This document shows, one piece after another, positions 7,200 to 51,610 of a stretch of DNA of 64,000 bases. The stretch is taken from contig NW_006921538.1 in assembly GCF_000340215.1 (NCBI RefSeq), forward strand, positions 3,450,372 through 3,514,371, read 5' to 3'. Position numbers and translations under genes: made by a program. Within the stretch, counting starts at the first letter, position 1. Each line of letters opens with the position of its first letter. The notes under the pieces were generated by a model, which was not told where the DNA came from, ran no database searches, and was given only the letters and a program-made list of their open reading frames with translations. Origin of the DNA: Pseudocercospora fijiensis CIRAD86 (Eukaryota; Ascomycota; Dothideomycetes; Mycosphaerellales; Mycosphaerellaceae).

Positions 7200-7845
7200 G
7201 ATAGGCAAAAGATAAATAAAAGTTAACTAAAAGTTAACTAAAAGTTAACTAAAAGTTAAAGAAAGGATAAGTAGAAGATAAGTAGAAGATAAGTAGAAGA
7301 TAAGTAGAAGATAAGTAGAAGATAAGTAGAAGATAAGTAGAAGATAAGTAGAAGATAAGTAGAAGATAAGTAGAAGATAAGTAGAAGATAAGTAGAAGAT
7401 AAGTAGAAGATAAGTAGAAGATAAGTAGAAGATAAGTAGAAGATAAGTAGAAGATAAGTAGAAGATATATCGAAGATAAATAAAAAGTAAATAAAAGATA
7501 AATAGAAAATAAATAGAAAATTAATAAAAGATAAATAAAAGATAAGTAAAAGATAAATAGAAGATAAATAAAAGATAAACAAAAGATAAATAAAAGATAA
7601 ACAAAAAATAAGTAAAAGATAAATAAAAGATAAGCAAAAGATAAATAAAAGATAAGCAAAAGATAAATAAAAGATAAATAAAAGATAAATAAAAGATAAA
7701 TAAAAGATAAATAAAAGATAAATAAAAGATAAATAAAAGATAAATAAAAGATAAATAAAAGATAAATAAAAGATAAATAAAAGATAAATAAAAGGTAAAT
7801 AAAAGATAAATAAAAGATAAATAAAAGACAGGTAGAAGATAGGAG
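7200..7845. repeat. 11-bp minisatellite array (gataagtagaa / gataaataaaa), left border of the repeat island
   Basis: Two higher-order blocks are visible. gataagtagaa is repeated almost perfectly from about 7266 to 7465, and gataaataaaa with variants from about 7470 to 7830. The apparent long minus-strand frames here (FIYLLFIFYLS repeats) arise because 11-bp units cycle through all three frames. They are not genes. Confidence 0.93.
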
Positions 7846-7926
7846 AAAAGATCGAGAAAATTACTATTACGCTATCGAGGAAGTATTTTTTAGAGATCGT
7901 ATAAAGATCGAGAGGTCTTAGCATTC
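7846..7926. other. Unique spacer between satellite and element A
   Basis: About 80 bp of unique sequence. It ends in cattc at the element A border, and cattct is also found at the far border of A (21950-21955). Confidence 0.5.
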
Positions 7927-20159: not shown

Positions 20160-21500
20160 GTAGCGTTAGCCGCTAAGAGGTGCTTTCGGTGTTTAGCGGA
20201 AGCACGGTCAATTCGGGCCTAATCCTTAGGTTTGTCGTATTGGCCTAGTAGATAGCTAGTGCTATTACAATTAAAGTACTTTAATCCGGTTAGTAGACTG
20301 CCGTAGCTGTTGTTGCTATTATTAGCCGAGCGGTTAGTATTATAGGGATACGAGCCCCTTCTACGGCCCCTATCGCGGCCTCCTCTATATAGCCGTCGGC
20401 TACGGCCTCTTCTACGGTCGTTACTGTTCCTATTGTTAGCATTGTTGTTATAGTAGGAACCTTGGTTTCCTCCGCGGCTACTACGGTTGCTACGGTTAGT
20501 ACTAGTTAGTCGGATCCTCGATTCTAGTCGTTATTAGAGCTAAACAGCCCGTTCGGCTGTCTCTACTTCGACTATGAATTGAATACGTATTAGATTAGCT
20601 TATTCAAACACACGGCGACGGTCTAATTCGAGGATAAGCTCCTATCTGAGTTTTAGGCGTATCTCGGAGATCTATATAGAATTAGTCTTAGGCGGAAGGT
20701 CGTCTTTAAGGGTTTTTAAATAGGCCTCGAATAAGCGAGCCGATTAATTAGTCTTCTGTTTAGCTCGAAGATATAGGTCCTAAGCATGTTGTTGCCTTAG
20801 TATAGGGTTTCTAAGGGTATCTAGCATAATAGTTTTGTAGGTCTGCTACTAAACAGCGGTTTAATTATCGAGGGAATCGAAATAGTTATCCTAGGTACGC
20901 TTTAGGTCGCTATTAATGTACTGTATAGCGTAGACAACCAATAAATAGTCGTCTAGAAGAGCCCTTAGTACGTTTCGCTAGTTAAGCTTATAGTCGCGAA
21001 TATAGTCGTTATATTGCTTCCGACTAGAGCTATTAAATACGGTATAGTCCTTGAGTTTAGCATCCTTCTTCTAGACTAATAATAAGGAAGGTCCTACTAT
21101 TAGTTTAGCAGTAGTTGTTAGGGCTTCCTAAAGGCGACGGAGCTCGAGAAGGTTATCTCTTAGCTGTTATTCTTAACGTAGGGCAGTAAGCCTGTTTTAA
21201 GTAGCTTCTTAAAGTCTCCCTAATAGTTGAGGGCTAAAGGCTAGTTAGCTATATCGTCGATTAACAATGTTATTAAGAATGTCGCTAACAGGCAATTCCG
21301 GATTATTACCTAGAATTACAGGTTCTTCTTTAGCAGGTTCTCCGGTAGGCTCCTTAGTAGGAGGCACTTTAGTAGGTGCTCTAGTAGGCACTTTAGTAGG
21401 CACTATGCTACTAGCGTTGTCGTTGCTAGCGCTGCTAGCGGCAGCACGGTTGTTATTGCTTCGTAATAAGCCGGCTATTGTAATAGGGGGTAACACTAAT
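20160..21500 (-). pseudogene. Element A gag remnant
   Basis: The minus strand encodes a Pro/Thr-rich start (VPTKVPTRAPTKVPPTKEP, 21496-21245), then a degraded helical region and an Asn/Arg-rich basic segment near the C-terminus. It matches element B gag on the plus strand. At 20165-20172 it keeps, in single copy, the site that carries the hAT insertion in element B. Confidence 0.8.
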
Positions 21501-21751
21501 AATGTATTGTTAGCCCCTAAGATGCGGATATAGCGGAATTAGTAGATATTAGTCTAGTACGATTAACTTAGTGTAATAGGCCGTATAGAAGGCCTTGCTT
21601 AATAATTGGTACGGTTGTTTCGATAGAAAAGTACGTATAGGTCCCGTTCTTCGGGCGTAATATAGTTAGATTAGTCTTGTTCGTAGCTACACCGCTAAAA
21701 GCTTAAAATAAGGACTATCTAGCTGCTACCCTTAAAGGGTAGATCGAATAC

Positions 21752-21951
21752 TGTATAAGAAGGGTTATATTAGCAGGTAGATAGGGTAGTAGTAGGTAGA
21801 AGTAGTATTCGATAAGGAGCTAGGAGGAGAGGGAGGAAGGTAGGCAAGTTAGCCTATTGCTAAGCGCTAAGCCCTACCTAAGGCATCAAGACCCTAGCTT
21901 CACTCGAGCCCGGTTATATACTAATTACGTATAACCTCTTTAGTCCTAACA
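21752..21951 (-). repeat. Element A 5' LTR
   Basis: 200 bp, TG...CA ended on both strands (tgtataagaagg ... tcctaaca on plus). It is homologous to the LTRs of element B at 34612 and 51194, which read in the opposite orientation. Confidence 0.9.
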
Positions 21952-22003
21952 TTCTTAGCCTTAACGTAAAACATAGTAGGTAGTTATCGAGAACGACGAG
22001 AAG
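21952..22003. other. Spacer between elements A and C
   Basis: 52 bp, ending in the agaag target duplication of element C (21999-22003). It is part of the original locus that continues at 34536. Confidence 0.7.
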
Positions 22004-22191
22004 TGTTACGATATAACACTATTGCATGTACGATAGCAGGCAGCGGTTACTATCGACCGCTGCGGTCGCTATTGCTACTAATAGTAGGACTATTATATAG
22101 ATAGCTTGCCTCGCGGCACCTTAGAGAAGGCATTAACTTTTGTACCGCACAACCGTTACGATACCTTCGTACTATAACCGTATACCTAGCA
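22004..22191 (+). repeat. Element C 5' LTR
   Basis: 188 bp, TGTTACGA...CCTAGCA, with an intact TG start. Confidence 0.93.
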
Positions 22192-22699
22192 ACTTAGTAG
22201 CTTCGCTTAATACTTAGTTAGCTTCTATACTAACTACTAGTCCTCTACCCGAATCGACCCCGGTCGTTACGGCTACGACGAGAATCGACGCGATTAGCTA
22301 CGGGTCCTACCGATCTTCCGCCGATTACTACGATTTAACTCCTACCCGTTACGACGGTACCTATTCGATTTACTACCCTTCTGCACTATACCCTACCGAC
22401 GCGCGAGCGCCTTATCGGCGATCCTGTTAGTACCCCGAGGAGACAGTAGTAGTAGTTTCTACCTTTAGTAGCAATTGCCTACTATACCTAGGTCTAGGGG
22501 TAGCCGCTTTCCCTAGAGGGACCTGCCCGATAAGCTACGCTCCTCTACCTTTAGTCGGTTCTCTATTGTTGTCCTCCGTTTAGAGACTATCTCGCCTCTA
22601 CCCTCTTACTAATAGTTTACCCGCTTGCCGTAGCTCCTTCGGACTCGCTTCTAACTCCGGTAGAAGCCTCGAAATCAGCTAAGCTAGCGGTTTAACCGC

Positions 22700-25600
22700 T
22701 GCCCTAGTACTATAATCTCGGATTACTAGATATAGAGCCCTATATCCTACGCATCTATTCCTATATTTAGAACTACGTCGATTATAGCGAGAACTTCGCG
22801 ACCTAGCTTAGGGCAAAGTACGGCCGAATCGACTTGCTTGCCTTATACGTTCTATATTATTACCCGCTCGTAGGAAATCCGCCGCCTCTATAGGCCAAAA
22901 TCGAGGAACTCTACCTAGACGCCCTTAACGGTTATAACTTCCTAGGACAGTAGGTAGTAGATAAAGGAATCCTAACTAAATCGGTTAAGGAGCTTAAAAC
23001 CGCGCTCCTAACGGTGCGCGATTTACGCTATTACCGTTAATTCTACCTAGAGATCTATCTACTACCTATAGCAGAGCAGCGCCTACTAGCCCGACCGCCT
23101 CAAGTCCTACCGCGGCCTACGGTTTCGCCTATTACTACGGTAGAAACAACCGTACCGCCGGAATAGCGTCCCGGTTCGCCTAATAGCTCGCTTGAATCGG
23201 TTTTCTTACGGAGGCTACTTAAGCTACGATACCCGGCGGACGAGAATCCTTAGAAGCTAAGGGGGCCTCTGCCTAAGACTTCCTCTAAGGAACCGTTAAC
23301 CGGGCCTTCCGATCTGTCGACGTCGCCGTTCTAGGATATCGGTCGCGGCTAATTGCCTCTAATAAACGACGGCCTCGCCGACCCGTAGGCTAACGAGCCG
23401 CGTAGTCGTTTCTAATATCGTACCCTAGTAGATGCCTCGTAGATAACCGAGGAGATCGATAGGGCGAACATCGCCGTATAGCAAAACCGTTAGCGTCGTA
23501 ATTATCTTCGCGAATTAGCTAGACGGAGAGGAGTCTATCTTAACGAAGTCGTATTAAACTTTCTAATAGAACAGGCGATTTCACCGCTATCGGCTACGCG
23601 TAAGCTAAGTCCGCCCTAGCCGAACCCGGGTTAATACGATTACTAGTAGAGGGCAGACGTATATATAAATGCCCGTAGGTATAGCCGCTTGCGTCGGGGC
23701 GGGTTTGCGCTAGGCGATCCGCCTAGCAATCCGCCTAGTAATCCTCCTAGCAATCTACTTAGAAATCCTCCTAACGATCCTCTACTACTGCTACCTAGTA
23801 ACTTCGATCCGGGTAATTCCTCTCGTAAGCCGACGTAGGGTTAGCCTTTGCCCTTTCCGCTATTAGACTTATAGGGTCTACTATAGGAAGGCAAGAAGCA
23901 ACGCCGGAAACACCGTCGCTATAGGGATAATCCGAGCGAGGATAGATCTTTATCTAATAGTAAGGATTCGGACGACTCCGATTAATCCTCGTCGGATAAC
24001 AATAGCTCCTTAGATACTAGTTATTATAGACACGCCCGCCGTCGTAGACACCGTTAGCATTATCGGGACTACGTCGCGGAAGCGCTAGTTTCTAAAGCGA
24101 GTTATGTCTAGAGGCACTATGCCCGCCCCTAGCGGCTACGGTTCGATCTAGTATATCTTAGGTTCTTCGATCCTCTACTTAGCGTTACGGATTACGGCGA
24201 GGGAGACTACGCCTTAGTCGGGAACAAGATAATATACCGTTCGGTATATACTTTTATCGAAGCGGCTAAGGATTATACTTATATTGTAGGGCGAGAGACG
24301 GTTCGTCTTAACCTCTCCCTTTGCTTTCGAGGGGTAGCGCTTAGTTAGTATTATAGTTACCTTTCTAGCCGCAACCGAGTAAAGCTCCGCGGCGGATACG
24401 GTCTAAAGCGCTAGGAACGTTGTCTTAGTAAGAAATAGAAGGTCCCTCCGATAAAGGCGATAGATCTCCTTAATAAGTAACGCTACGACCGGTAGGATAT
24501 CGCTTTAGGGCGTTTAGTAACGGACTTTATTGTTAAGACGGTGCGACTCGCTAAGGATGCCGGCGTACGGAAATCGAACCGGCTCTTAGAAGCTTACCGT
24601 CGAATAGACCCGCGCCTCTAATTAAATATAGACGAGCTAAATCGTCGTACAAAGGTCGATAAGTAGGTTACGTACTACGAGAAGCAGGCATTAATCTAAG
24701 AGCATATACTTTCGTCCTCGTCTAATCGTCGCCTAGACGCTACGACTAGGAACAATAGCCGCGCTAGTAAGGCTGCCTAGTAGAACCGATACGAAGGGAA
24801 CGCCTCTTATGCCCTAGCGAGCTTCGCTCTAGTAAGAGCGTCCCCTAACTACCGGAACCGCGATATCGACCGACCGAACCTACTACGCCTTACTAACGCC
24901 TATTAGCAGAATCGCCTACCTAACGCCTCTTAGCAGAATCGCCTGCCGCCGGCAGGAAATAGTAAAGGACCGCCGAAGGGCAGTAGCTCTACCTTCCTCC
25001 TAAAAGACCTAAAGCGAGTCGATTCGCGCCTATTTAATCGATAGGATAGAAAGCGTAACGATCGAGCTCGTAAGTAGGCTAACTTTGCCGATAATAGTAA
25101 GAGAGCAGGCGATACCGTAAATAATACTAACTAAGCCGACGACGGCTATCGGGAGGATAGTTAGGAGGATAATAGGAGGACCGACGCGGATAATTATAGC
25201 TATTTTAGTAACGCTAGAGAAGACGCCGACTACTTTACCGACCCTTACGACTCCGATCCGGGCTTAGGAGCTTACTTTGCGGGCGTAGGCAATCGCTCGC
25301 TATTAGCGTTAAACTCGGTACTATAGGCTAAAGCGTCCCTGCTAGCGGCGATCTAACTATTTGCCTCTACGAAGCACGCTTGCAAGGTCTATAGGCGGCG
25401 ATTTAAGTTAGGTAACCTTCTATACTAGTATGTTCGCAAGGAGTACGCAGGGGCGACGACGCCTTCTACTATTATCGAACGCGTATCGGCAAACCCGGAA
25501 GTAATTCAGTCGAAGGCGCCTCCGTTAGCTTAGTAAGATTACGCGTTCCGGAATTGGCAATATATAACTTTCCCCCTTCGGTTGTTACTATCCGGTACAT

Positions 25601-26000
25601 CTATATAGGTCTGCCTAGATACTAGCTATACGCTTACTATTGCGGAAAAAGACTTCGTTTTAAGCTATCGCCCGGACGTAGAGGTACGCAAGCTACGCGA
25701 ACCGATCGAAATCGGCGGCATCGCTAGCGCGTATCGCTCTAGGGAATACGTTGTATTAGATATGTTTGTCCCGGTAGCGAAAACGGACGGTGCAGTCTCC
25801 CTAGTGCGAATAACTCGTAAGGTTTACCTGGTTCCTAAACTAAAGGCAAAAATCCTAGTCGGTATAGATACGATTGCTCTAGAGGGAATAAAGATCGATG
25901 TTCCCGTATAGACGGTTACCGTAGCTAGTTAGGACAACGCCCGCTTTAAAGTAGCCGTTAAGCGCAAGAAAGGGAAGTCGGTTTAGCGCCCCGTAAGGCT
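22700..26000 (+). pseudogene. Element C gag-like region and protease
   Basis: One frame, interrupted mostly by TAG, encodes a helical Gag-like stretch (LLALYVLYYYPLVGNPP about 22830, LNGYNFLGQ, KELKTALLTVRDLRYYR). After it come Arg/Ser-rich segments (PSNPPSNPPSN near 23730) and an Asn/Arg-rich region near 24900. A retropepsin-like motif CLDTSYTLTIAEKDFV lies at about 25615, where LDTS is the likely active-site triplet. I found no clear zinc knuckle. Confidence 0.7.
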
Positions 26001-26539
26001 AGCGGAGGATGTAATATTAGCGCCGCGTACGGTCGCCCTCGCGCTAGTCAAGTACGGCGGTAACCTCCCTAAGGGCCGGGATTTCATTCTTAACGCCGGT
26101 TTCTTAGTCTAGCTAACTAGCAATATATAGGGATTGTCGTTACAAGCTCCGCCTTTAGTAACGGCGTATAATTAGGTCGTAGACGCTAATTTTTCTTATA
26201 TATATATTCGTAACGATGCGACTACTCTAGTAACGATTCGAGCCGGATAGCTGCTCGGTTCGTTAAGTAATAGGACTATTACTAGGGCCTACTATATCGA
26301 CGTAGCCGACTACGGACTAGTAGGATTGAGTCCTAACGCTTTTACGGCTACGCGGGATATGCTAAATGCATAGCGGGAACACCGGTACGCGTTAGGCGTA
26401 ACGATCTACGGTGACGATAACTAAGCAGACTAAATTGCTACTACAGTCGAGCGGTACCCGGAGCTCTTTACTAATCGCTAGACGGTCGTTGATATTCCTG
26501 AGCACGATTATATGCCTATCCCAACCGTGCCAAATTACC

Positions 26540-28464
26540 TAGATCTGCTACCGCCCCCCCGTATAATTAACCTAGGTAAGAGGGATCGTAAAGTAGTAGA
26601 CAAGATATATAACGACCTATACCGCTAGGGGAAGATACAGTACACAACCGAGCCTACGCCTTTCGGCTTCCTAGTGTTTGTCGTATAGAAGCGCGTTGCT
26701 AACGGTAAAGGTAGCATAATTAATAAGCCGCGGGCGGTAGTCGATATACGCGCCTTAAATAAGGTAACGATCCCCGATAGCTATTAGATACCGCTCTAGG
26801 CGGACCTCTTCGCACAGTTAGTAGGGTGCTAGTATATTAGCACTATAGACTGCCTAACCTTCTTCTACTAATAGGGCGTAAAGCCGGAGGATTGTTATAA
26901 ATTAACGATTAATACTTATCGTAGCTAGGAATAGTATAAGGTCGCTATTATAGGATATTCGAACAGTGTCTAATTCGTATAGCGGAAGCTAGATTAGATC
27001 CTTCGCGACTGTCGCAGCTTTGCGCGGGCTTATATCGACGATATCGTAGTGTTTTCGAGGACGTTGCCTAAGTATCTCGATTATCTAGAAGCGGTCTTCT
27101 AGAGATTAGACGCCGTAAGGATTAGTATTAGTCCGAAGAAGACTTTCTTAGGCTTCCCCTTTGCGACCCTTTTAGGTTAGTACGTTAGCGGCCTCGGTCT
27201 AGCTACGAGTAAGGAGAAAATCGCAGCGATTACCTTACTTTAGTTCCCGGAGAACGTATAGAAGCTAGAGCATTATCTCGGTCTAACTAATTGGTTGCGG
27301 CAATATATCCTATACTACGCGTAGATAGCGGCGCCTCTATAGGCGGAGAAAACACGCTTGCTAAAAGGGGCGCTAGTTACCGGTAATAGTCGTCGCCGGC
27401 ACGTCGCCGTTACGACGCTAGGTAAGAACGATTAGCACCGTAACGAGCTAGTAAAAGCGTTTCGCTTATTGCAATCGATGTTCTACGAGCCCTCCTTCCT
27501 ATACTATTTCGACCCTAACCGTCGCTTATACGCTAATATAGATTCCTTAAAAGAGTTTAGCTATAGCGCGGTGCTCTACTATATCGATAGGGACCTAGAC
27601 CCTATTCTATCTAAGGGAAAGGCGCAGTTGTTTCCTTACTACAAGGTTTAGCCTATTTTGTTCTTAAGCCGAGGCCTAACTTAGGCGGAGATACGATATT
27701 AGCCGACAGAGCTCGAGTACTCGGGAATCGTATAGATAGTAAAGAAGGTAGGCTATTTAATGCATGCTTTATCGAGGCCGACAACTATCTTTATAGACTA
27801 CTATACCGCGGTCGGTCTTACTAACTCGGTATCGATAACTACGACTACCGATATAGGCAAGCAGAACCTAAAATTAGTAAGAGCATCGATGTTCCTTTCC
27901 TAATATCGAGTTAATATAGTTTACCGTCTAGGGCGGATATACCTAGTTCCGGACGCCCTTAGTCGACTTCTAGGGGATACGGAGTCGCCTAAGCTAACGC
28001 CGGACGAGGAGAACTTAGACCCGCTCTTTTACTATGCCGACGCTACGCCCTCCTCGGCCGATCTAGAGGAAGTGGCCTACTTCTATACGATATTAGTAGA
28101 GCTAGATCCGGATTTCCGACGTCGGTTAAACCGAGCGTACGATAACGACGAACATTAGTCTAGGGTTTTGCGACTAGTTCGATAAGCGTAGGCGCGGAAT
28201 GCTTTAGAGCGTCTCTATTCGGAGGGAGCTAATATGCCTTTAGTAACGAAAACGCTAGTTCGGTATAAGGGTGGCAAAAATCCGGACCTATTCGCAGATA
28301 ATAAGTTTAATAGTCCGCTAGGCATTCGATTCTTCGAGAGGGACGGCCTCTTATATTTCCGTAACTAATCTTTAGGGCGCGAGCGACTCTATATCTCTCG
28401 AGCCTTAATAGGCGAGATCTTCGAGTAGGCTTACGATAACCGTTGCTACTAAGGCTTTTAGCGC
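26540..28464 (+). pseudogene. Element C reverse transcriptase and RNase H remnant
   Basis: RT motifs run in order in frame 1: VPNYLDLLPPPR, TTEPTPFGFLVFVV*KR, KPRAVVDIRALNKVTIPDSY, YKLTINTYRS, and the catalytic YIDDIVVFS at 27031 (intact). After them come ISPKKTFLGFP and an RNase H-like block with NRRLYANIDSLKEFSYSAVL (about 27520). This block includes a 60-codon stop-free stretch (27469-27651). The frame ends in the assembly gap. Confidence 0.88.
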
Positions 28465-28564
28465 NNNNNNNNNNNNNNNNNNNNNNNNNNNNNNNNNNNN
28501 NNNNNNNNNNNNNNNNNNNNNNNNNNNNNNNNNNNNNNNNNNNNNNNNNNNNNNNNNNNNNNNN
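28465..28564. other. Assembly gap (100 Ns)
   Basis: Exactly 100 Ns, which by common practice marks a gap of unknown size. It removes the core of the element C integrase. Any reading frame drawn across it is an artefact. Confidence 0.99.
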
Positions 28565-36389: not shown

Positions 36390-36397
36390 CAGCTAAC

Positions 36398-36417
36398 TAG
36401 ACCCCGTAGTGGTTCGG
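36398..36417 (+). repeat. hAT left terminal inverted repeat
   Basis: 20 bp, tagaccccgtagtggttcgg. It is preceded by the 8-bp duplication cagctaac (36390-36397). Confidence 0.93.
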
Positions 36418-36537
36418 TTTCCGAACCACCAAACGTATATAGTTTGGTTTCTTAGCGGCGAACTAGCTCCCTAGTTCCGGTTTAGTTTTTTCGAACTATA
36501 TAGATTCCTAGTTTGAACTAGAGACTGTATTAGTTTT

Positions 36538-36842
36538 ACTATAAGGACACTCTTATTCGACTGCCGGCTACGATTGCCGGCTATAATAGTAACTCTGTTA
36601 CATTTACTACGCTCTTTTGCCGTTGCTAGGGCGTGGTTGTCGTTGCTAGGGCGTAGTTGCCGTTGCTAGGGCGTAGTTTTGCTATAAGGATACTCTTATT
36701 CGACTGCTGGCTACGATTGCCGGCTATAATAGTTACTAGGTTGTATTTACTACGCTCTATTACCGTTGCTAGGGCGTAGTTGCCGTTACTAGGGCGTAGT
36801 TGCCGTTGCTAGGGCGTAGTTGCTATTGCCGGGGCGTAGTTA
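36538..36842 (+). repeat. Subterminal direct duplication with 20-bp tandem units
   Basis: Two copies of a roughly 145-bp block (from about 36538 and from about 36682). Each contains gccggctacgattgccggct and then tandem tgccgttgctagggcgtagt units (three in the first, four in the second). In hAT elements subterminal repeats often bind transposase, so this is a candidate for that role (inference) or a promoter of the first gene. Confidence 0.8.
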
Positions 36843-36987
36843 CTATAGTTGCGAAAGCTTACCTATATAACGTTACGTAGGCGGCAATAATTAGGGCTTC
36901 GCGACATTCTTACACTTTTAACTTCTTCCTCTATACCTATACCGACAACAACTACTATACGCTACGCCCCCGCCCCTTTCCCTTATA

Positions 36988-38400
36988 ATAGCAAGAGAGA
37001 AGCGCGCCGCGCGCTAAACAGAAGATAGAACTAAAGATCGCGAGTTTATTTTACCTAAGCGTCTAACTAAAAAGCGTAAGACTAAAGAGGAGTACTCTAC
37101 GAAGAAGAATTCCGTACGAGACCGCGAGAGAAAGGAGAAGATAGATAAGGATAAAAGAGCTAAGGATAAGAGAAGAAAGGCGCGGAATAAGGCATTCTAT
37201 CGATAGTTAGCGTCTATAGAAAAAAGTAAAGGTTAGAATAAGAAGACAACCTAAGAGAAGGCTAAGAGGAGGAAAGAATTGCGGCTAGTTTTCGAGCGTA
37301 AAGTTCTAGCAGCGTAAGTTAATCTAGCTAGCGGCCGTAGCTAGCAGCTATAGCCGGTAGCCGTAGCCGGCAGCTATAGCCGGTATATTTTTCTTTAATA
37401 CGTTAACTAATAGCATTCAGACCTATAGCCGCTACCTCTATCGATACGACCGATAGTAACGGAGATGTTTAGATAGCCGAGAACAACAATACTAGAGTTT
37501 AGGATACCGCGATAGAGCTTAATACTACGAATAAAGGAACTGAAAAAAGCGAGGAGATACTATACGTCGATCTAGTAACAGGTACAGTCTTAGGGCCTAA
37601 CGCTATAGACGATAAGCGCTAGGAGTAGATCGAGTATAGTTAAAGAGACGAGATACTAGTAAAGGGCTAAGGCATAAGTCCTATTAATCTAGAAAATCAT
37701 AGTTAAAGCTACTACGAAAAGCTAGCAAGGATTGGAATCGAGACTAGTCGTCTTTATATCCTCGATATAGAGTAGAAGTTTCTTTATTAGTATTAGAGCG
37801 AAGCCTTTACGTCTATAAAGGCAAAGTAGCTTGCGATTAATACGATCGGGGCTAGGTATCTAGGGACGGCAGAAGTATTACTATAGGAGGAAGGGGTATA
37901 GGTAATTATTCTATACTCGGCATATATAGCCGGCGTTCGTAGCCGGCAGATACTAACAGTTAAATAGAAAGCGTTTCTCGAAGGCAGAGTGCTACTGCTA
38001 TATAAAATCTTTACTAAGGCAGAAAGGGCTTATATCCGGAATCTAAGCTGCTAGTAGGATAGGTTAGCGTTAGAATTCTCTAAATCTCTATATAAGCCTC
38101 CGAAGGATTACCTATTTTAGCGATACGGCTTTATCTCGACTACTCCGTAGGTACCCGAAGAAGCTCGAGCGCTCTTTAAGGTCTTTACTAAGAAGCGGAA
38201 GGAGTTCGAGGATTAGGATTAGTTAATAGAGCTATTAGTTAGTCTTAGGTTTCGTAGTTAGACTCGGCCTAAGCATTTGCTTATCGAGTGTCTTATACCG
38301 AAAGAGGATAGATTGAGACTGAAAACGAGCTTAGATTCGTTAGGTATAGTAGCTCGGTTCCGTTAGTAGGAGAGAGCCGCCGTATAGAAGGCAAAATTCA
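36988..38400 (+). pseudogene. hAT accessory gene: Lys/Arg-rich protein, unrecognised
   Basis: The first exon (about 36988-37313) starts at an ATA where an ATG->ATA change (TpG->TpA) would fit. It encodes a very basic stretch, with RLTKKRKTKEEYSTKKN, DKDKRAKDKRRKARNKAF and KAKRRKELRLVFERK. An intron (37314-37420: GTAAGT donor, TTAACTAA branch, ATTCAG acceptor) joins in phase to an acidic/polar exon that ends near 37901. A second intron ends TACTAACAG at 37959, but its phase is not resolved. The last part reads FLEGRVLLLYKIFTKAERAY... to about 38390. No family is recognised. The basic N-terminus suggests nuclear or nucleic-acid binding. Stops are TAG/TAA only. Confidence 0.6.
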
Positions 38401-38546
38401 GGTAGTTAGGGTAGCTAGGAAAGAAATTCTAGTAGTTAGGCTAGCTAGGGTAGCTAGGAAAAAAAATCTAGTAGTTAGGTAGCTAGGAAACAAAAAAAAA
38501 AGGTAGCTAGCTATTTACTACCTAGCTATTCCTAACGATACGATAC

Positions 38547-38554
38547 TATAAAAG
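38547..38554 (+). promoter_or_regulatory. TATA-like box of the hAT transposase gene
   Basis: tataaaag about 80 bp upstream of the transposase ATG (38632). Confidence 0.5.
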
Positions 38555-38631
38555 AAAGGGTGTTTCTCTATAGCTACTAGTATACATCTACTACTCCTAA
38601 GTCCTTACCTTACCGTACGAAACCTTAAAAC

Positions 38632-41600
38632 ATGCCGACCGACATTATATATACACTAGGCGCTATACTAGGAAGGGTAATAACGAGACGACAGTCGAAA
38701 CAGTCTAGTATACGAGCGAGATTGCGACAACGTCGAGAGGAGGTCGTATACTTACCTTCGAGCCTATCGAGTCCTAGACTACGATTAGGGCTAGATTCAT
38801 CCTCTCCGAATCCTAGTAGTAGGAATTTATTATAGGGTACTACTACCTAGTCCTTACCTTTACGGAGTCTAAGTAGAAGGTTGTTCGGAGATATAAGAAC
38901 ATCGAGTATTAACCCGGAAATCTTCGAAAAGGCTAGCTAGGCGTATCTTTAGAAACCCGAGTATATAGAGTAGTTCAATTAATAGGTCTATAAGATATAG
39001 TTCCCTTTATACTTACGTTCGAAAGAGTATAAACTCCGGAAGTACTCGATGCGATAGGGGAGTAAGGAGCGAACGGACACATTCTAGAAGTTCTTTATAG
39101 AGGGGGCATTGCACCGTTATACGACTTCTCGACTTAAAGGTTAACTAGTAATTGTCTATAACTTCTACGGTTCAATCTTAAAATACCCGAAACTAGGGGA
39201 TAGGAACTCATCGCCTACGAACTATCTCTATTCTAAACGGTGTCGGGAATCTTAAGGAGAGAGGAGAGTTGATATAGATACAGCGTTCTAGAAAGAGGTA
39301 TATCTTCTAAAATGCCGGCTATAGCTGCCGGCTATAGCTACCGGCTACAGATTCCGGCTACCTAAATTAACCGTAGAGATCTAGCTAATTATTATAGGCT
39401 ACGCTTAAGGAAGCTCTAGGATTAAAGGCTACCGATTTCTCCCCCGAAGACTTTAAGCAACTAGCAAACGAAATGCTAGCTATAAACGGTCTTCCGGAAG
39501 ACTTCTACGAAAGGGAGTCTATATAGAAGATATACCTATATCTTACAAACTACCCTCCCCTATTTCTCGGCGCGACAACCTAGCGTATTATATTCGAAAA
39601 GAACAAAGAGGCTACGTTAGACGACATTCGGGAGATCCTCCGTAATACTCGCCGAGTAGCTATTGCTATCGATAGCTAGTTAAGCCGGACTATAAGAGCC
39701 TCCTTCCTCTCGATTATACTATACTTTATTAATTCGGATTGGAAACTCTAGGAACTTATAATCGGATTCCCTGAAATTCTAGGTTCCTATACTAGTAAGG
39801 ATATAGCGAAGCTTGTCTATACGGCAATAGACAGGGTTAGCGTAATAACGAAACTAATCTCGATTACTGCGGACAACGCTAGTAATAATCGAACATTATA
39901 TAAGGCGTTGTATATACAATTCACTCGTATATATCTTTGAAATTACTAATTGTATCGATAGGGTCGAGTACGTAGAGGAGATTATAAGGTCTACAATCTA
40001 GCTTAATCTTCCGAATGTTAAGCTCGCTACGATTCCGGATACGCACGACAATACGCACGATAATAACGATAAAGAGGAGCCTATTAATAGCCCTAGCCCT
40101 ATTAAATCGGAGCCGACGTCGTTGCTAGTTGCATCCCTATAGAAGTTTCCCTACCTCGCTTATATAGTTTAAATCGCGATCCGAGCCCTCTTTAAGACGC
40201 TTAAAATTGCACTATTAAACGACGACTAACAGAAGATCCTAGATAAGGATAAAGCAAAGTCGAAAGTCGAGAAACTTATTATAGCAATAAGACGGGATAA
40301 GGCAGAGAGCCTCGCTCTCGTTTTATATAAGGTATAACTTTTGTCCGTAGCCGGTACCTATAGCTAGCAACCTAGTATAGTTCTAACTCTTTTTCTCTAG
40401 CTTCGTCGTCTAGCAATATATACGAACTCGAGCTTATAGAGATATAACCGATTCGAGGCTATTTAAAAGAACCTAATCGAGCGCCCTAAAACCGATGCCT
40501 AGAATATCGCATAGAATAAGCGATAGCAAAAGCGGCCTCCTTAGCGCCTACTCCGTTTTACCTAAGACGTTAAGACCCGGTTCGATTCGACTTTCTATAT
40601 AGTTACGAGGGGATATACTTTACGTACCGCTCTCGAGATCTATTAGAGTTCCGAGGGTATTAAGTAGCTCGGCCTTACCGCCGCCGAATAGCGCTAAGCA
40701 GAGTATCTCGTCGATATTAGTAAGCATTACGCGAAGGTTACTACTACGATTAGAAGAACCCGAGGACCGACGATCTACCTTGTCTTTACGTACTATAACT
40801 AGCTCTTTAACGAGCTCGAGGAAACCGTAGCTAAGCTAGCTAAGAAGAGCGTTCCCTAGAAAGTAGCTATAACGAAAGCTATAGACACCTCCTATACTAA
40901 GTTGTATAAATATTATAGTGCTACCTTTAACTCGTTCGGGGATATCTATAGCGTTACGTACTTGCTTAACCCGGTAGAAAAGGATATATACTAGCAGAGG
41001 CCGGAATAGAAGGCGGACGAGGTATAGCCGAAGCATTACTAGACTATTCTAGAAAAGATGTTCTACGAGCGTCGGAAAGAAACTAGTCTAAATATAGCTC
41101 CTATAAAGAAAAAGAAGGTTTAGAAGGCTCTAATATTATACTTGTTTCGTAGGTAGGAAGTAGAGGCAGAAGAGGAAGCAACTACTAAAGTAAATAAAGA
41201 AGAGTTCGATCTCTATCGGCGCGCGAGTAAGTATAAACCCGTAGGCTCGGAAAGAGGGCTAATAATCTCTAGATCTTACTAGTCTTCTAGACGAATTCGG
41301 AGACGATATTCTCGCTATATAGCAGCGGTTAGAGCCTAAGTTTCTAACGATAGCGTCGGTCGCTCGGGACGTCCTCGCTATCCCGAGCGTAGGCATAGGC
41401 TATAAGAGGTCTTTCAATATCGCTCGTTACTAGGGCCGCTTTAATCGAATATACTCGCCTACTACCTTCGAATCTATTATAGTATTCCGATACTATCTCC
41501 TCTACTAGAATCGCTAAGGCAGGTTACTAAAGATTATACTAAAGGAGTTAATCGAGGAATTAGAAAACCTTAAGATCGAAGAAACCTAGGAGCGCGAAGA

Positions 41601-41748
41601 GAATACGAAATTTAGTCTAAGCGAAACCCTAATTAGCGATAACGAAGAGGAGGAGGGCGGAGGTAGAAGGCGATACCGGATCGAGAAGCGGAAACGTATA
41701 CAGGCTTAGAGTAGCTTTAAGGAGACGAAGCGTTTACGTATAAGGTAA
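38632..41748 (+). pseudogene. hAT transposase
   Basis: The frame starts at ATG 38632 (PTDIIYTLGAILGRVITRR). Intron 1 (39298-39397) joins in phase to ATLKEALGLKATDFSPEDF. The catalytic core shows INSDWKL*ELIIGFPEILGS near 39735 and ITADNASNN near 39867, the typical hAT D-N-A-S-N-N block. After it come KFPYLAYIV*IAIRALFK and VKTRFDSTFYIVTRGYTLR (about 40570), and an insertion-domain-like LFNELEETVAKLAKK. The C-terminal dimerisation motif is VARDVLAIPSVGIGYKRSF (about 41360) and then ESIIVFRYYLL. Another intron lies near 40331-40399 and a short one near 39925-39960. Transposase cuts and joins at the terminal repeats. This copy is dead from many TAG codons. Its N-terminal zinc finger, if any, was not identified. 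Confidence 0.9.
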
Positions 41749-41916
41749 TATAGCCGGCGTATATAGCCGGCATATGTCCGAAATGTGTTTCGAATTCCTA
41801 GGACCTAAACAGACTAGTTGCTATAGTAACCGACCCCGCTTACCTACGGACTATTTCTAATTCTCTATTCGCTCTTCCTCTCCTTTTTCCCTTTCCCTAT
41901 ATTCTTAAAGATAAAT

Positions 41917-42751
41917 ATGCCTTAAGGATTCGGCTCTTCGGGCCTTCTTAAGCCGGCTACCTCCCCTTCCTTAAGCTACTATCCTTTATTCGAATCTAAC
42001 GATAACCTAATAAGGCGGTTTAATAGAAGACTATTTGTTCTAGAAGGCAAGAAGCATTAATGTCTCCTTACGATTATATACTTATTAATTTTCTAGGTCC
42101 TACCGATATACCCTCGTCGCCTAAACGCGTAGATAAATATCTTTAAAGGCTAAAGGGCAAGGGTAAAGCAAGCTAAGTATAGGGAGACCGTAGCGAGAAC
42201 GAGATATCGGAAGAGTAAGGCTCTCCGTAGTATATACGAAGGAAGGGGGTTCCTCGGAAAATAGTACCGAAAAACAAGAAGGCTATAGGTAGATAGGAGA
42301 AGGCTAAAAAGAGTAGGCGGACGAAGACTATTGCGAAGAAAAGTTATCTTTCTATTAAAAGAAAGGGAACAAGGCAGGACTCGACGATAAAGAAGCGGCG
42401 CTTTAAACTAGGTACTATTACCCTTCGCTAGATCCGGCTTTTCTAAAACAAAAGAGGGACCGAGCTTTTAATCCCTAAGACTCCCTTCTAGCGACTCGTC
42501 CGAGAAATTATATTAGATTTTCGGTCTAGTATACGATTTACGGCTAAGGCGATTAGTACTCTTTAGGAAGCTACGGAGGCATTTCTCGTAACCGAGCTTA
42601 AGCTTTTAAACCTCCTTGCTATCTATACGAAGCGGGTTACTCTTCAAAATAAAGATATATAGCTTCTAGCTAAAATTCGGCGTCGGTTTATAGCGGATTA
42701 GTTGGAAATTGTATTTAGTCGTTAGATTAACCTAGGAGGAGGCCCATTTTC
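41917..42751 (+). pseudogene. Divergent histone H3-fold gene in the hAT element
   Basis: Starting from ATG 41917, a first segment (MP*GFGSSGLLKPATSP) is probably followed by a short intron ending TTCTAG near 42090. The frame then has a long basic tail (about 42190-42395: RRKGVPRKIVPKNKKA, KKSRRTKTIAKKSY). It reads into an H3 histone fold at about 42396-42695: KKRRFKLGTITLR*IRLF, LLIPKTPF*RLVREI, RFTAKAISTL*EATEAFLV and LLAIYTKRVTLQNKDI*L. The EAFLV and RVTL features resemble CENP-A-type variants, but the CENP-A loop-1 insertion is absent. After ~42695 an unusual tail runs to a donor at 42752. An open frame at 42823-43250 (ALYIHPAIIETSYI) may be a further exon, but the splice phase is not resolved. 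Confidence 0.82.
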
Positions 42752-42822
42752 GTATCCTTTTGCCGGCTATAGGTGCCGGCTATATTTCTAATTTTATCTC
42801 CGCGCCGTCCCTAAATCTAAGG

Positions 42823-43260
42823 TACGAAGTAGAAACCTAGCGCTCTATATTCACCCGGCTATTATAGAGACGAGCTACATTCAGATTAGTTTCTTCGCAT
42901 ATCGCGACCTAGCGGGTAGTAAGCGAAAGGGCGATAGAACGTTTATAATACGTCTCTATTTAGACCTAAAATACAAAGGTCCTAAGGAGCCCTAGCATCC
43001 TAACTACAAGGAGATTCTTTAGCATTAGCACTTTGATCCTCTATACTACGAGGCAGATAGCAAGCCTACGAGAGAGAAACTTTAACGAGAAATTCTCTAT
43101 AATGCGTAGCGCTATTGCATAGCTATAGATACGTACTAAGTCCGGCAACTCGAAGAAGAATTAAGACAGCGTATTAGCGACCGAGGAAGAGATCGATAGT
43201 ATACTAGTAGAGTCGAGGTCTTATAAGCGAAGCATAAGATAATATAGGCTCTTAGTCGTA
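42823..43260 (+). pseudogene. Possible further exon or separate small gene after the divergent H3-like gene
   Basis: One frame with only TAG/TAA interruptions reads NLALYIHPAIIETSYIQISF, LAGSKRKGDRTFIIRLYLDL and a Glu/Arg-rich possible coiled coil VR*LEEELRQRISDRGRDR (TAA at *, probably Q). Function not recognised. Confidence 0.4.
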
Positions 43261-43840
43261 TAGAGTAACGTACTATATAAATAACTAGGCGTACTACTCT
43301 TATTCACTTACGACCTATATCCTAGGATACTCTTCTCGTACTTTTTATACTCTTTTCTAATACCTTACCTATAAGCGCTCCGCGATAACCGAGTGAATAT
43401 AAGCTATAGGGTTTCCGCTCGGTACCTTAGCCTCCGAGATAGGGCGGAGTTGAATTTAGAGCGATAGCCGGCACTCGTAGCCGGTATATAGAGACGGTAG
43501 TAGGCCTTTTCCTGCTAAATAACTAGCTTGTTTAGTATAGCCTACCTGATATTTCTTATATTTACTAGCAATAGGCCTAGGTTACTTATAAGATTACTAT
43601 AGCTAGTAAAGGTATTACTAAAGAATATCTATACTATAGTAAGATACTATTATTACGCCGGCTATTTATTAAAAGGAGGCTTTCGCCTATTACTATGCCG
43701 GCTATATATGCCGGCTATATTTCAAAGTCTCCCGTACCTACCTTTTTTAGCCGTGCCTGCCTTTTTTAGCTGTACCTGCCTTCTTTCCTTGCTCTAACGT
43801 TACTATAATATAGGCTTACGCGAAGCTTACTCTATTACCT
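43261..43840 (+). other. hAT intergenic segment
   Basis: No coding frame followed. It contains several GCCGGC motifs (about 43467, 43487, 43657, 43701 and 43713) and ctttttta-rich repeats before the H3-like gene. Confidence 0.5.
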
Positions 43841-44258
43841 AGCGATACCGCGACACTACCGCTATATTCAACCTTCGCATCGATACCTATACCTCTACGC
43901 TCTATATCTACTACCTCCGTAATACCCTCGCTCCGCGCGCGCCTTCGTACACCTTCGTAACGCACTTTTTTCCTTAATTCGACGACTTTTACAATAGCGA
44001 GTCTACTTAACTAAGTTACGACGCCTCGCAAGAAGGGACCTAGTGCTTCTACGGGTCGTAATAAGACCGGAAATAGTAGAACGAGTATAGTACATTAACG
44101 TAAGAGGGCTACTGCTACTACCGCTAGCTCCGGTACTAGAAAGGGCGTCGCGAGCAAGGCTTCGCGTAAGACAACGGCGGGCAAGGCTCTACGTAAGACG
44201 ATAACTAGCGCTTCTACTACTAGTAGCAATCGTACGAAGCGTCGATAGCGCCTAGGAA

Positions 44259-44337
44259 GTAAGTCCTATTTGTAGCCGGTAGCGTAGCCGGCAGCGTAGC
44301 CGGCATTCTTACTGTCTTTTTACTAATCCTTCTTTAG
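44259..44337 (+). other. Intron 1 of the H3-like gene, with three GCCGG motifs
   Basis: 79 bp. It contains tagccggtagcgtagccggc and a further agccggc repeat. Splicing gives G-T-V at the point where canonical H3 has RPGTVALRE. Confidence 0.8.
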
Positions 44338-44520
44338 CCGTAGCCCTCCGTTAGATTCGGCAGTATTAGAAGAGTTCTAAGCTCCTAATCCGTAAAGCTC
44401 CTTTCTAACGACTTGTTCGCGAAATTGCCTAGGATTATAGAACGGACCTTCGCTTCTAAGCCTCCGCGATAGGCGCCCTTTAAGAGGCTATAGAAGCCTA
44501 CCTAGTTCGTATCTTCGAAT

Positions 44521-44568
44521 ATATATTTCTCTTCTACCTCTTTTCGGACTATACTAATACTATTTTAG
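44521..44568 (+). other. Intron 2 of the H3-like gene, donor destroyed
   Basis: 48 bp. The donor reads ATATAT after T, as expected from GTATAT by a TpG->TpA change. ACTAAT branch and TTTTAG acceptor are present. Removing it gives IFE-S-VNLIAI, the same length as LFEDTNLCAI in canonical H3. Confidence 0.65.
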
Positions 44569-44877
44569 CGGTCAACCTTATAGCTATCTACGCGAAGCGT
44601 ATAACGATTATAGACAAGGATTTCAAAGCACTCGATTAGATTCTAAAAGGCTAGAATATCTATATTCGAGACGGTGCTAGGTAGGATAGATGTTCTAGTA
44701 GAAAGGATATTCGTAGTGTTATCTGCAAGCTTTTCTATATGCGAAATAAGCCGCTGTTATACGGCGCTACATACCGCGCTCTAAATACTCTCTAAGTATA
44801 TATACATAGTATAGTATGCTTTATTAGCCGTACGGAATAGAAGTCTCCTAAAATCCCGTTAGTACTAAGGAGTAAAA

Positions 44878-44948
44878 AGGCCGGCTACGCTGCCGGCTAC
44901 GCTGCCGGCTACGCTGCCGGCTACGCTGCTAGCTACGCTGCTAGGTTT
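44878..44948 (+). repeat. 12-bp tandem repeat tgccggctacgc
   Basis: About six consecutive 12-bp units, the last ones decayed to tgctagctacgc. It is the largest cluster of the GCCGGC motif scattered through the hAT element. A shorter cluster lies at 45758-45781. Confidence 0.85.
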
Positions 44949-45942
44949 TTCAAAGAACTAAAAGAAGATAGACATTCCGGTTGATTTGTATTAGTTTAGA
45001 TTTTTATAAAAAGAAAACAGGGAAAAATAAGGAAGGTTGAAGAGCCTAATAGTTATAGTTATAGGCACTATCCCTGTTTTCTAGAGCATATTATATACCT
45101 GCCTTCGCAACTCTACCTAATACTCCCTCTAAATATCCTTATACTCTACCTACTAGAAATTCAACTAGGTACCTAGACCTGTAGCTGCCTCTATATCTTT
45201 TACTATCTTCTATAGGTTGAAGGCCTCTTCTATAGTAGCCTCTACCTCCTTATATAATACGAAGTTACTACCTGCCCTACCCTTTATATCTCCTAAATAA
45301 CTAAGAGTTCTAAGGAACGAACTAGCATTCGGCCTTAGTATAGCGAGTAACTAGTGGAACGTTCTACAGAGCTGCCTTATAGCTCTTTTATATACTATAC
45401 CGATACCGAGGGAGGAGCTATCCTAGTACTTAATATTGTCGAATAGTTTAGTAGGAAAGTATATAAACTTCTTAAGGAGGAGGACTTCTAGGGAAATCGA
45501 TGAGTTCTGCCTAGATCTAGATAAAGACATTCTACTAAGCAGTTAGGGAATTGAACCGTAAACGAAAGGATGAAATTCATACCTAAGGAGTACAGTTTCC
45601 GAACTGAACTATAATGCCTTATATATATGTGTATATACTTTTGATTGGTTAGTGCCCTTAGCTGATTATCTATAGATTTGAGGTTATATAAGTACCTTTA
45701 TACAACTACGTAGCCTAAGTAGGATTCGAAAATTCTATAAGTACTAAGGACTAAAAATGCCGGCCACGCTGCCGGCTACACTGCTAAGTCTTACAAAGGG
45801 CTTGCTTGAAGCTACGTATACATTCGTACACTTCTTAAAAACCGATAAATTATATAGTTCGAACCAGCTACTTATATAGTTGCTTAGCAAACCAACCCAA
45901 ACTAAACTAGAGTTTCGGCTTAGCAAACCAAACTAAACTAAC
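44949..45942 (+). other. hAT right-hand non-coding region
   Basis: I followed no convincing frame here. It ends in clustered tttggttt / aaaccaaac motifs next to the right terminal repeat. Confidence 0.5.
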
Positions 45943-45962
45943 CCGAACCACTGCGGGGTCTA
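45943..45962 (-). repeat. hAT right terminal inverted repeat
   Basis: Reverse complement tagaccccgcagtggttcgg, followed by cagctaac (45963-45970). Further ggttcg- and tttggttt-type motifs occur just inside both ends. Confidence 0.93.
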
Positions 45963-46079
45963 CAGCTAACGCTACCCCTATAGGCCAACCTTCGAAAAAA
46001 GAATAAGCGCCGCACTAACTGTTAGCCTTGTGCGGCGTAAGACTATCGACATTGTGCTAGCTATAACACGCTCCTGCCT

Positions 46080-49000
46080 TATATAGGACACGAAGGGCAC
46101 TACCTATTAAACTAAGGTTATACTAGATCTAGGAAATTCAGTTAGTGCCCTTATTAGCTATCGCCTAGCTAAGCAATTAGACCTTCGACAACTGCCTAGG
46201 ACTAACCTGCTAACCCTTGCTTAGTTTAATAACGCTCGGCACTTGACCTATAGGGCCTACTATATTTATATAGCCCTAAAGGACGACCTCGGAAATGAAC
46301 GCCTACTAGACTTCACTGCCTACGCAGTAGATATAGACAACCTATATAGGGGAGCTACTATTGTTATTAGCAACCCTGTTCTTAAGCACTATGCTATAGT
46401 TATAGACTTAGGCAGTTAACAATAGCGATTTAGAATCGCTAGGAGAGAGGACATTAAATACATCGACATTAGCGAGTGTCCTAATAATATTAGGGTCCTG
46501 TTTATTAGCAACCTAACACTAGCCTCTGCCTTAGCCGACCTAACGGTCGACCTATTAGGCGACGATAATGAGCCTGTGCCCCCTAATAGCATAGACCCTA
46601 ATTAGCTCGAGCGTATACTAGAGCCTATTCGAGAGACCTACATTAATGTGTTTAAACACTACCTAGCATCGACATTGCCTATATTTAAAGAGACGGATTA
46701 TAAGATTGATATTATAGAGGGTAAGGAGGTTCCTTTTAGCCCCCTCTACAACCTTAGTAAACGAGAGCTTGCTATGCTACGTAAGTACCTAGAGGAAAAC
46801 CTAGCTAATAGTCGAATTCGATACAGTAATAGCCCTACTAGTGCACCTATCCTGTTCGTGCTAAAGAAGGATAGCGGCCTACGTTTATATGTTGATTATA
46901 GAGGGCTTAACGCTATTACTATTAAAGACCGCTGTCTACTCCCGCTTATTAATAAGACCCTCGACCGCCTTTCTAGTGCCTACTACTATACTATATTAGA
47001 TATTAAGGACGCCTATTACCGTATCCGTATTCGCAAGGGCGATAAATAGAAGACAGCCTTCCGCACTCGCTATAGCTATTTCGAGTACTTAGTTATGCTA
47101 TTTAGGCTAGCTAATGCCCCTACTACATTCTAGTCCTACATCAATCGGGCCCTATTAGGCCTACTAGACTACCTCTACGTAGTTTACCTAGATAACATCC
47201 TAGTTTACATACACTTACCTAATATTGCGGAGTACTAGGCTATAGTCCGTAAGGTGCTCGATCGCCTACGAGCCTATAGACTATATTACAAGCCTTCTAA
47301 ATGCACCTTTGCTACTAAGGAGGTAGCCTTCCTTAGTTTTATCGTATCAACTAATAGTGTTAAGGCTGATCCTAATCGGATTAAAACAATTACTAAATGG
47401 CCTATTCCTACGTCTATTAAGGAGCTTTAATCGTTCCTCGGCTTCGCTAATTTCTACCGCCGCTTTATTAAGGGCTATTTACGGCATATAATGCCCCTAA
47501 CTAAGCTCACTAAAACTAAGGCCAACCTAACTAGAGAGTTCAAATAGACTAATAGAGCATAAGCCGCTTTTGATAGTTTAAAGAAGCGGTTCACTAAAGT
47601 CCCTTTGTTACACTATTTTATACTAAACAAGCAGATCCGAATTGAGACTAACGCTTTACAGTTCGCTATATTAGCTATAATGTCTTAGCAGTTAGATAGT
47701 AACTACTACTAGCACCTAATTGCCTTCTTCTCGAGGAAGATGATTAATGCTAAGCGTCGCTACGAGACCTACGAGCAAGAGCTCTTAGCTATTGTCGAGG
47801 CCTTTAAGCATTAGAGGCACTACCTCGATAGGGCTTAATATACAATACAGGTCTATACAGACTATAACAACCTCCGTAGCATTACTAAGGTTACTAGGGT
47901 TATAGGTCGATAGGCTAGATAGGCCGTCTACCTCGCCGGGTTTAATTTTAATATATTATATCGGCTAGGCGTAAGTAACCCTGCCGATAGCCTATCGAGG
48001 CGACCTAATTACGATAGCGAGACCTAACACATTAATTCTTTGTTTCCAACCCTATAGTATAAGATTGCTATAGCCTATATTATTAATAAGCACGCGCAGA
48101 ATAAGCGGCTTACCGGACTCCGCGACGGCTTGAAGCATATTAATGCTCTTGCTATATTAATAGTACGTATTAAGATAAGAGCTAAGGACACAGACAGGAG
48201 AAGTTATAATAACTCCCTAGTCGATATCGCAATATACAGTAACAGCGATAGCACTGCTATAGTTAATCCGGCTGCTAGTGCTATTAGATGTATACAATGC
48301 GTACCTCGTTTAATAGCGAGGGTACTGTTAAATAACCTTGCAAATAGGGATAGTTAATCGTTTATAGATAAGCTATTACGTACTTAGCAGAGGGACGCCT
48401 TTGCTGCTAAACGTATCGACAAGCTTATAAGTAGGCGAACGACTCGATCTAGTAAGAGTAACTAGTCGGTCGATAACAAAGGTTATTTGAAGTTTAAGGG
48501 CAGATACTATATCCCCGCTAAACATTCGATCCGATAAGAACTTCTTAAGCGATACTATAATAGTAAGCTTGCCGGTTACTATAGTACAGAGAGGTCGCAC
48601 GAGCTACTATCGCGCACATACTACTAGCTAAATAGTAAGCGGAACATAAAGGAATACGTTAACACGTGTGCCGTATGCTAACGTATTAAGGCACTAAAGC
48701 ATCAGCCTTTTAGCGAGTTGTCCTTATTGCTAATCCCCTACAAGCCATTTACGGAGCTTATAATAGATTTTATTATAGGTCTTCCCCCTACTAAGCGAAG
48801 AGGAAGCAAAGATATCTTTAACGCTATCCTAGTCGTTATAGACCGGTTTACTAAGGGCGCTCGATACATCCCGGCGCGGAAAGATTAGACTGCTATTAAT
48901 ATAGTAGAAGCGCTGTAGAACAACATCTTCTGTACCTATTAGGGGATCCCTAAAGGGATAGTCTCTAACCGAGGCTCGACATTTATATCTCATTATTAGA

Positions 49001-51193: not shown

Positions 51194-51390
51194 TATTAGG
51201 GCCAAAGAGGCTATACGTAATTGGCATATAATTAGGCCGAGTGAAGCTAGGGTCTTAGTGCCTTAGGTAGGGCTTAGCGCTTAGCGTTAGGCTAACTAGC
51301 CTACCTTCCTCCCTCTCCTTTTAGATCTCTATCGAATACTATACTAATTCACTACTACCCTATCTACCTGCTAATATAACCCTTCTTACA
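51194..51390 (+). repeat. Element B 3' LTR
   Basis: 197 bp, TATTAGGGCC...CTTACA. TG has become TA at the start, and 2 bp are missing near the end relative to the 5' copy. Confidence 0.92.
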
Positions 51391-51610
51391 GATAAATAAA
51401 AGATAAACAAAAGATAAATAAAAGTTAAACAAAAGACAAACAAAAGATAAACAAGAGGTAAGCAAAAGATAAGCAAAAGATAAATAGAAGATAAATAAAA
51501 GATAAATAGGAATTCAGTACAAGTTAAGCAAAAGCCAAGCAAAAGCTAAGTAAAAGTTAGGTGAAAGTTGAACAGAAGTTAAACTAAAGATAAACAAAGG
51601 ATAGATGAAA
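51391..51610. repeat. 11-bp minisatellite array, right border of the repeat island
   Basis: gataaataaaa and variants (gataaacaaaa, gttaaacaaaa, gctaagtaaaa), increasingly degenerate to the right. The orientation is the same as at the left border. Confidence 0.88.

Follow-up and report, generated by a model that had tools for sequence, protein, structure and literature searches.

The window, a 64,000-nt stretch of the Pseudocercospora fijiensis genome, holds on its forward strand a 9,565-bp element (positions 36398 to 45962) that has undergone repeat-induced point mutation (RIP) and carries two genes resembling histone H3, designated H3-A and H3-B. The element begins with a 20-bp terminal inverted repeat (TIR), TAGACCCCGTAGTGGTTCGG (36398 to 36417, + strand), and ends with its near-inverse (45943 to 45962, - strand). 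Directly outside both ends lies the 8-bp target-site duplication (TSD) CAGCTAAC (36390 to 36397 and 45963 to 45970), the two copies being identical. Terminal repeats and an 8-bp duplication flanking an H3 gene had been recognized in the initial annotation; both are indeed present, but they bound the whole of 36398 to 45962 and not the H3 stretch alone.

The end pattern occurs at 692 places (342 plus 350) in the genome searched (73.9 Mb, 30 contigs); the reversed-pattern control gave 0. Among the first 100 of these places, twenty TIR pairs of 9-10.3 kb on contigs C1 and C2 were selected on the basis of their ends. Their spans range between 9,385 and 9,989 bp, one including a nested MITE; longer pairs, a 5.2-kb pair and 373-bp MITEs were set aside. 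Both H3-A and H3-B lie inside all 20 pairs, that is, in 20/20 full-size elements. The initial claim that an H3 gene is carried within a hAT transposon is thus upheld, H3 being an integral part of the element, and the check suggested for it, finding several copies with H3 between the same ends, gave a positive answer. A separate set of 20 genomic copies, selected on H3 score and therefore uninformative on H3-less copies, was aligned to the window element. All of them stop at one common right end. Compared piece by piece, 17 are 93-97% identical to the window (main type), and the other three (L010, L017 and L023) form a divergent subfamily with about 74-86% identity. Of eight full-size copies tested at both ends, seven have identical 8-bp TSDs (the exception being L041/L042), and the TSD of a divergent-subfamily copy is likewise identical at its two ends. 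Both H3-like genes accompany the element in its two sequence subfamilies, over hundreds of copies. The initial annotation had considered that copies lacking H3, together with a separate insertion or an assembly join at 43.3-45.9 kb, would speak against its claim; all 20 pairs have both genes, and insertion or join is ruled out by this result and by the common right end of the aligned copies.

A 362-bp stretch that is single in the window copy (43092 to 43453, + strand) is tandemly repeated in 11 of the 17 main-type copies; this duplication, checked in L009 and L019, would explain the 9.5- versus 9.9-kb size classes. Short TAGCCGGC-type repeats recur in the element at 41747-41774, 42761-42786, 43694-43726, 44272-44313 and 44879-44943, and are found also within the first intron of H3-B. 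A family of 373-bp MITEs has the same TIRs as the H3-carrying element. The two members read (L045 and L046) are both flanked by exact 8-bp TSDs, and the same 373-bp span is present also at C1:8896685 and C1:10656734.

A region resembling a hAT transposase, broken into several frames, extends from 39386 to 41700 (+ strand; about 39.4-41.6 kb), the approximate frames being 39404-39910, 39951-40250, 40563-41090 and 41302-41560. Weak matches to the dimerisation domain PF05699 (Dimer_Tnp_hAT) came from 12 of the 14 copies scanned, with E values up to 1 (best E 0.0034); two of the 14 were read in the wrong frame and had 28-31% identity to the first. In the window copy, the score of 14.1 bits is below the curated cut-off of 21.4. 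DUF659 was matched weakly in one of 15 copies (E 0.12), and unrelated families are weakly matched in the region as well, e.g. SelB-wing_3 in 14 of 15. Dhillon et al. 2019 (PMC6710886) detected DUF659 in their element but no dimerisation domain. Altogether, the element has ends of its own with short TIRs and 8-bp duplications that fit the hAT superfamily, a transposase region with weak hAT resemblance, and two H3-like genes.

H3-B is the gene seen in the initial annotation, whose three exons were borne out. Exon 1, encoding the tail, spans positions 43994 to 44258 (start codon inferred), exon 2 positions 44338 to 44520 and exon 3 positions 44569 to 44654, up to a TAG at 44652-44654 taken as the end (all on the + strand). 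The proposed histone-profile check also agreed: with TAG and TAA read as Gln, 44025-44654 matches Pfam Histone PF00125 with 81.3 bits, mainly from exon 2 (cut-off 26.4). Intron 1 (44259 to 44337, + strand), with the edges GTAAGT...TTTAG, holds 12-bp repeats and measures 79 nt in the window, 103 nt in L010 and 91 nt in L023. Its excision yields GTVALR, as in host H3, whose own intron has the same phase and lies one codon earlier. Intron 2 (44521 to 44568, + strand; 48 nt) has a TACTAAT branch-like site, a TTTTAG acceptor and a RIPped donor (ATATAT); its excision restores the H3 alignment, and nothing equivalent to it exists in the gene for host H3. Since RIP converts TG to TA, this donor was predicted to have read GTATGT before RIP, and other copies agree. 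Elsewhere in the genome, the pattern TGTATR, in which the donor reads GTATGT or GTATAT, was found at 94 places and the RIPped form TATATR at 198 (controls 0); an intact GT donor is therefore present in 94 of the 292 exact-match H3-B intron-edge places. Between the window and L010, intron 2 differs, by eye, at two transitions and lacks transversions; exons 2 and 3 show 30 transversions in 254 columns, and the intron looks the more conserved.

The initial annotation had a single H3 gene: H3-B is real, but a second gene, H3-A, lying about 2 kb upstream, had been missed. H3-A (42108 to 42702, + strand, ends approximate) combines a long divergent tail with a core devoid of introns at about 42393-42702. 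Read in the same manner, 42300-42760 matches PF00125 with 87.0 bits (cut-off 26.4). The core pattern is found at 332 genomic places at two mismatches or fewer, the reversed-pattern control again giving 0. H3-A and the metagenomic protein P0001 have in common a two-residue insertion in the first helix and a terminal RRRF, both of which are lacking in H3-B. P0001 groups with H3-A in the best tree (94/90, not starred); its branch is long, and its loop 1, in contrast to that of H3-A, is lengthened. Together with P0099, a Sphaerulina fragment, it was among the 114 proteins retrieved in the first protein search with H3-A. Over 72 columns, P0099 is 57-61% identical to H3-A, 49% to host H3 and 40% to H3-B. 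As for viral relatives of H3-A, none of 114 pattern matches in viral contigs was confirmed. Searches with an H3-A alignment and with spliced H3-B (8,000 candidates scored in each, of which 7,995 and 7,985 passed) gave no transposon-named relative among the matches listed (120 each). They were dominated by H3 proteins of unusual length (about 220-350 aa), chiefly from plants and animals, one of which, P0232, holds two H3 stretches.

Both window genes are interrupted by TAG and TAA codons. RIP, a genome defence of the fungus, converts CAA and CAG to TAA and TAG, and its signature covers a large block of the window: in 2-kb bins between 8 and 52 kb, TA/AT varies between 1.63 and 2.22 and (CA+TG)/(AC+GT) between 0.24 and 0.63, against 0.30-0.53 and 1.39-1.60, respectively, in the first 6 kb. 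Because of this contrast, the stops are read as RIP damage, and no other genetic code is needed; an alternative code is ruled out, as the stops lie within a RIPped block flanked by normal sequence. Reading TAG and TAA as Gln, as in the initial annotation, does give the Pfam match, but RIP as the source of the stops had been missed. Genome-wide, 772 first-look histone candidates were collected and 150 were scored, the 150 listed being all above the Pfam cut-off; together with the 332 places of the H3-A core, this speaks against chance matches. Stops are present in 148 of them, and the remaining two are host H3 and host centromeric H3. Neither window gene has the open frame of a functional histone gene; both are dead, and no histone can be made from the window copy as it stands. 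The scored repeat copies of the H3 genes are likewise dead.

Other features were observed in and around the RIPped block. RIPped reverse-transcriptase stretches of retrotransposons are found at 21055-28500 and 46246-49000 of the window; the hAT element adjoins one such stretch, and 45965-46010 has a match in opposite orientation at 20170-20125. Bordering the block, an intact frame of 621 aa (5138-7003) combines a FAR1 DNA-binding domain with a fungal Zn2Cys6 cluster. Arrays of an 11-bp AAAAGATAAAT-like repeat lie near both block edges (7250-7850 and 51390-51600).

The host H3 gene lies at C6:1692026 and the host centromeric H3 gene at C5:606601. H3-A and H3-B have the histone fold in common with both, and their tails differ from that of canonical H3. 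Over 93 core columns, identity to host H3 in the window copy is 64.5% for H3-B and 54.8% for H3-A; between the two element genes it is 52.7%. The order is reversed in the divergent subfamily (L010 and L023), with 52.7-53.8% for H3-B and 55.9-57.0% for H3-A. A centromeric (CENP-A) origin is unsupported for either gene: centromeric H3 has a longer loop, whereas loop 1 of H3-A and H3-B has the length found in H3, and in the best tree both lie outside the CENP-A group (90/98). H3-A and H3-B stand apart in this tree, a single clade not being rejected (p-AU 0.09); a grouping of H3-B with canonical H3 is absent from it and is not rejected either (p-AU 0.17). The tree comprises 25 of the 34 aligned rows, P0007, P0012, P0018, P0032, P0033, P0035, P0071, P0099 and P0226 having been omitted. 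On these comparisons, H3-A and H3-B may represent two distinct lineages of histones. With less confidence, we infer that H3-A derives from another H3 lineage and that both cores were under some constraint in the living element.

No hAT family with an H3 gene was known to the initial annotation, yet two had been published. The first case, reported by Manning et al. 2013 (PMC3538342), is a hAT of Pyrenophora tritici-repentis with a transposase and an H3-like gene, H3L, between TIRs, as in the window. There, H3L is presented as neither true H3 nor CenH3; and, unlike the window element, the Pyrenophora elements measure 5.6 and 2.3 kb, form a group of 26 very similar copies and have ESTs. Dhillon et al. 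2019 (PMC6710886) reported little RIP in the Pyrenophora element and no similarity between it and their own element from P. fijiensis. For the latter, they described a 20-bp TIR, an 8-bp TSD, a size of 9.5-9.9 kb and one to two H3-like copies, counting 471 elements and 784 H3-like sequences, in a RIPped state; they noted H3 amplification in five related species, placed host H3 on scaffold 6 and concluded that a transcript or retrocopy had been captured. The window element agrees with theirs in TIR, TSD, size, H3 copies and RIP, and, compared by description, is the same element as far as can be told. In our analysis, the host H3 gene is on contig 6 and the first-look candidates number 772, which fits their scaffold 6 and 784 sequences. 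However, their account has no introns, one capture and a 16-residue mutation, whereas we find two introns in H3-B and an H3-A that is maybe of another lineage. No later literature on the H3-B introns was found among the titles and abstract openings covered. The H3-carrying hAT is already known; what is new are the H3-B introns, which favour capture at the DNA level, together with some indications of two H3 lineages in one transposon.

We consider it very probable that the window holds a RIP-killed copy of the published P. fijiensis element, in which H3-B was captured as genomic DNA, spread with the element and was then hit by RIP. An ascomycete H3 gene would have entered the element as genomic DNA, for example by being captured between its ends in gap repair. 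It would have multiplied with each transposase-driven move, and RIP would then have mutated the repeated copies. The gene structure makes it probable that H3-B was taken up as genomic DNA, which the initial annotation had proposed, since the gene has two introns, one of them a codon away from the host H3 intron; the intronless structure of a retrocopy is not what is found in this gene. Intron 2, having no counterpart in host H3, would have been gained later or would come from another lineage; intron 1 might also be a later gain, given that it is one codon off the host site. Further points weigh against this account: the H3-B of the divergent subfamily is no closer to host H3 than its H3-A is, and the tree neither rejects a joint clade of the two nor, in its best form, unites H3-B with canonical H3. 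H3-A, with its intronless core, could be a retrocopy.

Transversions are not made by RIP, and their distribution among codon positions was scored. In the two H3 cores, window versus L023, positions one to three have 12, 8 and 21 (21 of 41 in third position, p 0.014); in the transposase blocks, window versus L010, the numbers are 26, 15 and 36 (36 of 77, p 0.010). No skew is seen in the H3-A tail (7, 5, 6) or in H3-B exon 2 alone versus L010 (6, 6, 7), and in H3-B exon 1 the skew is reversed (7, 14, 4). Relative to host H3, third-position skew in H3-A (21, 15, 23) and H3-B (18, 10, 25) is far weaker than in host centromeric H3 (16, 15, 44). The codon-position signal is modest and gives a hint of use; strong purifying selection is unsupported, the signal being absent or reversed in the tails.

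We lean slightly towards the notion that the histone genes were passenger cargo, pieces of host genes trapped between transposon ends, without a role, amplified and later destroyed. Trapping of this sort, known as transduplication, is an already described process (PMC3538342), and stops in all but two of the scored histone matches are what it would lead one to expect. It accounts less well for the fact that two subfamilies have kept both genes and for the modest constraint at the codon level. These observations fit better with the idea that the H3 genes were kept because they were useful to the hAT, e.g. by forming nucleosomes hard to silence or easily opened by the transposase: the divergent subfamily keeps both genes, whereas its intergenic spacer and the sequence on the right of H3-B are absent or substituted by other DNA, and the third-position excess in the H3 cores is similar to that in the transposase. 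Still, we regard this second idea as unlikely in view of the lack of skew in the H3-A tail and H3-B exon 2, its reversal in exon 1 and its weakness relative to host centromeric H3. When still active, the element may have used its histones to shape chromatin, as the initial annotation envisaged; this is no more than a possibility, the scored copies carrying stops.

A more elaborate scheme, to which we give little credence, has two H3s with different origins, H3-A coming from an ancient, divergent lineage and the intron-bearing H3-B acquired later, the two maybe pairing in odd nucleosomes on the DNA of the element. Both have a Tyr where host H3 has a His, in the helix by which two H3s contact each other, and so H3-A and H3-B may have paired. 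If this were true, H3 would be a working part of the transposon lineage and not caught debris.

The reading of Dhillon et al. 2019 (PMC6710886), a single capture of a host H3 transcript or retrocopy about 100 million years ago followed by a mutation adding 16 residues, appears improbable to us. The intronless core of H3-A would suit it, as would the deRIPped, hand-edited sequences of that paper, which cross both exon junctions intron-free. However, fungal splice signals mark two introns in H3-B, and the "16 AA insertion" of the second H3 copy is the 48-nt intron 2, 48 nt being equal to 16 codons, whose GT donor survives in nearly a third of the exact-match places. The helix insertion and RRRF end that H3-A has in common with P0001, and not with H3-B, also speak against it. 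For H3-B, transcript capture is already contradicted unless the introns were later gains.

In conclusion, these results correct one inference of the published work: the gene most likely entered this fungal DNA transposon as genomic DNA. H3-B was retained with its splice sites through two subfamilies. The presence of two H3 genes per element makes it testable whether transposons retain chromatin genes for their own use.
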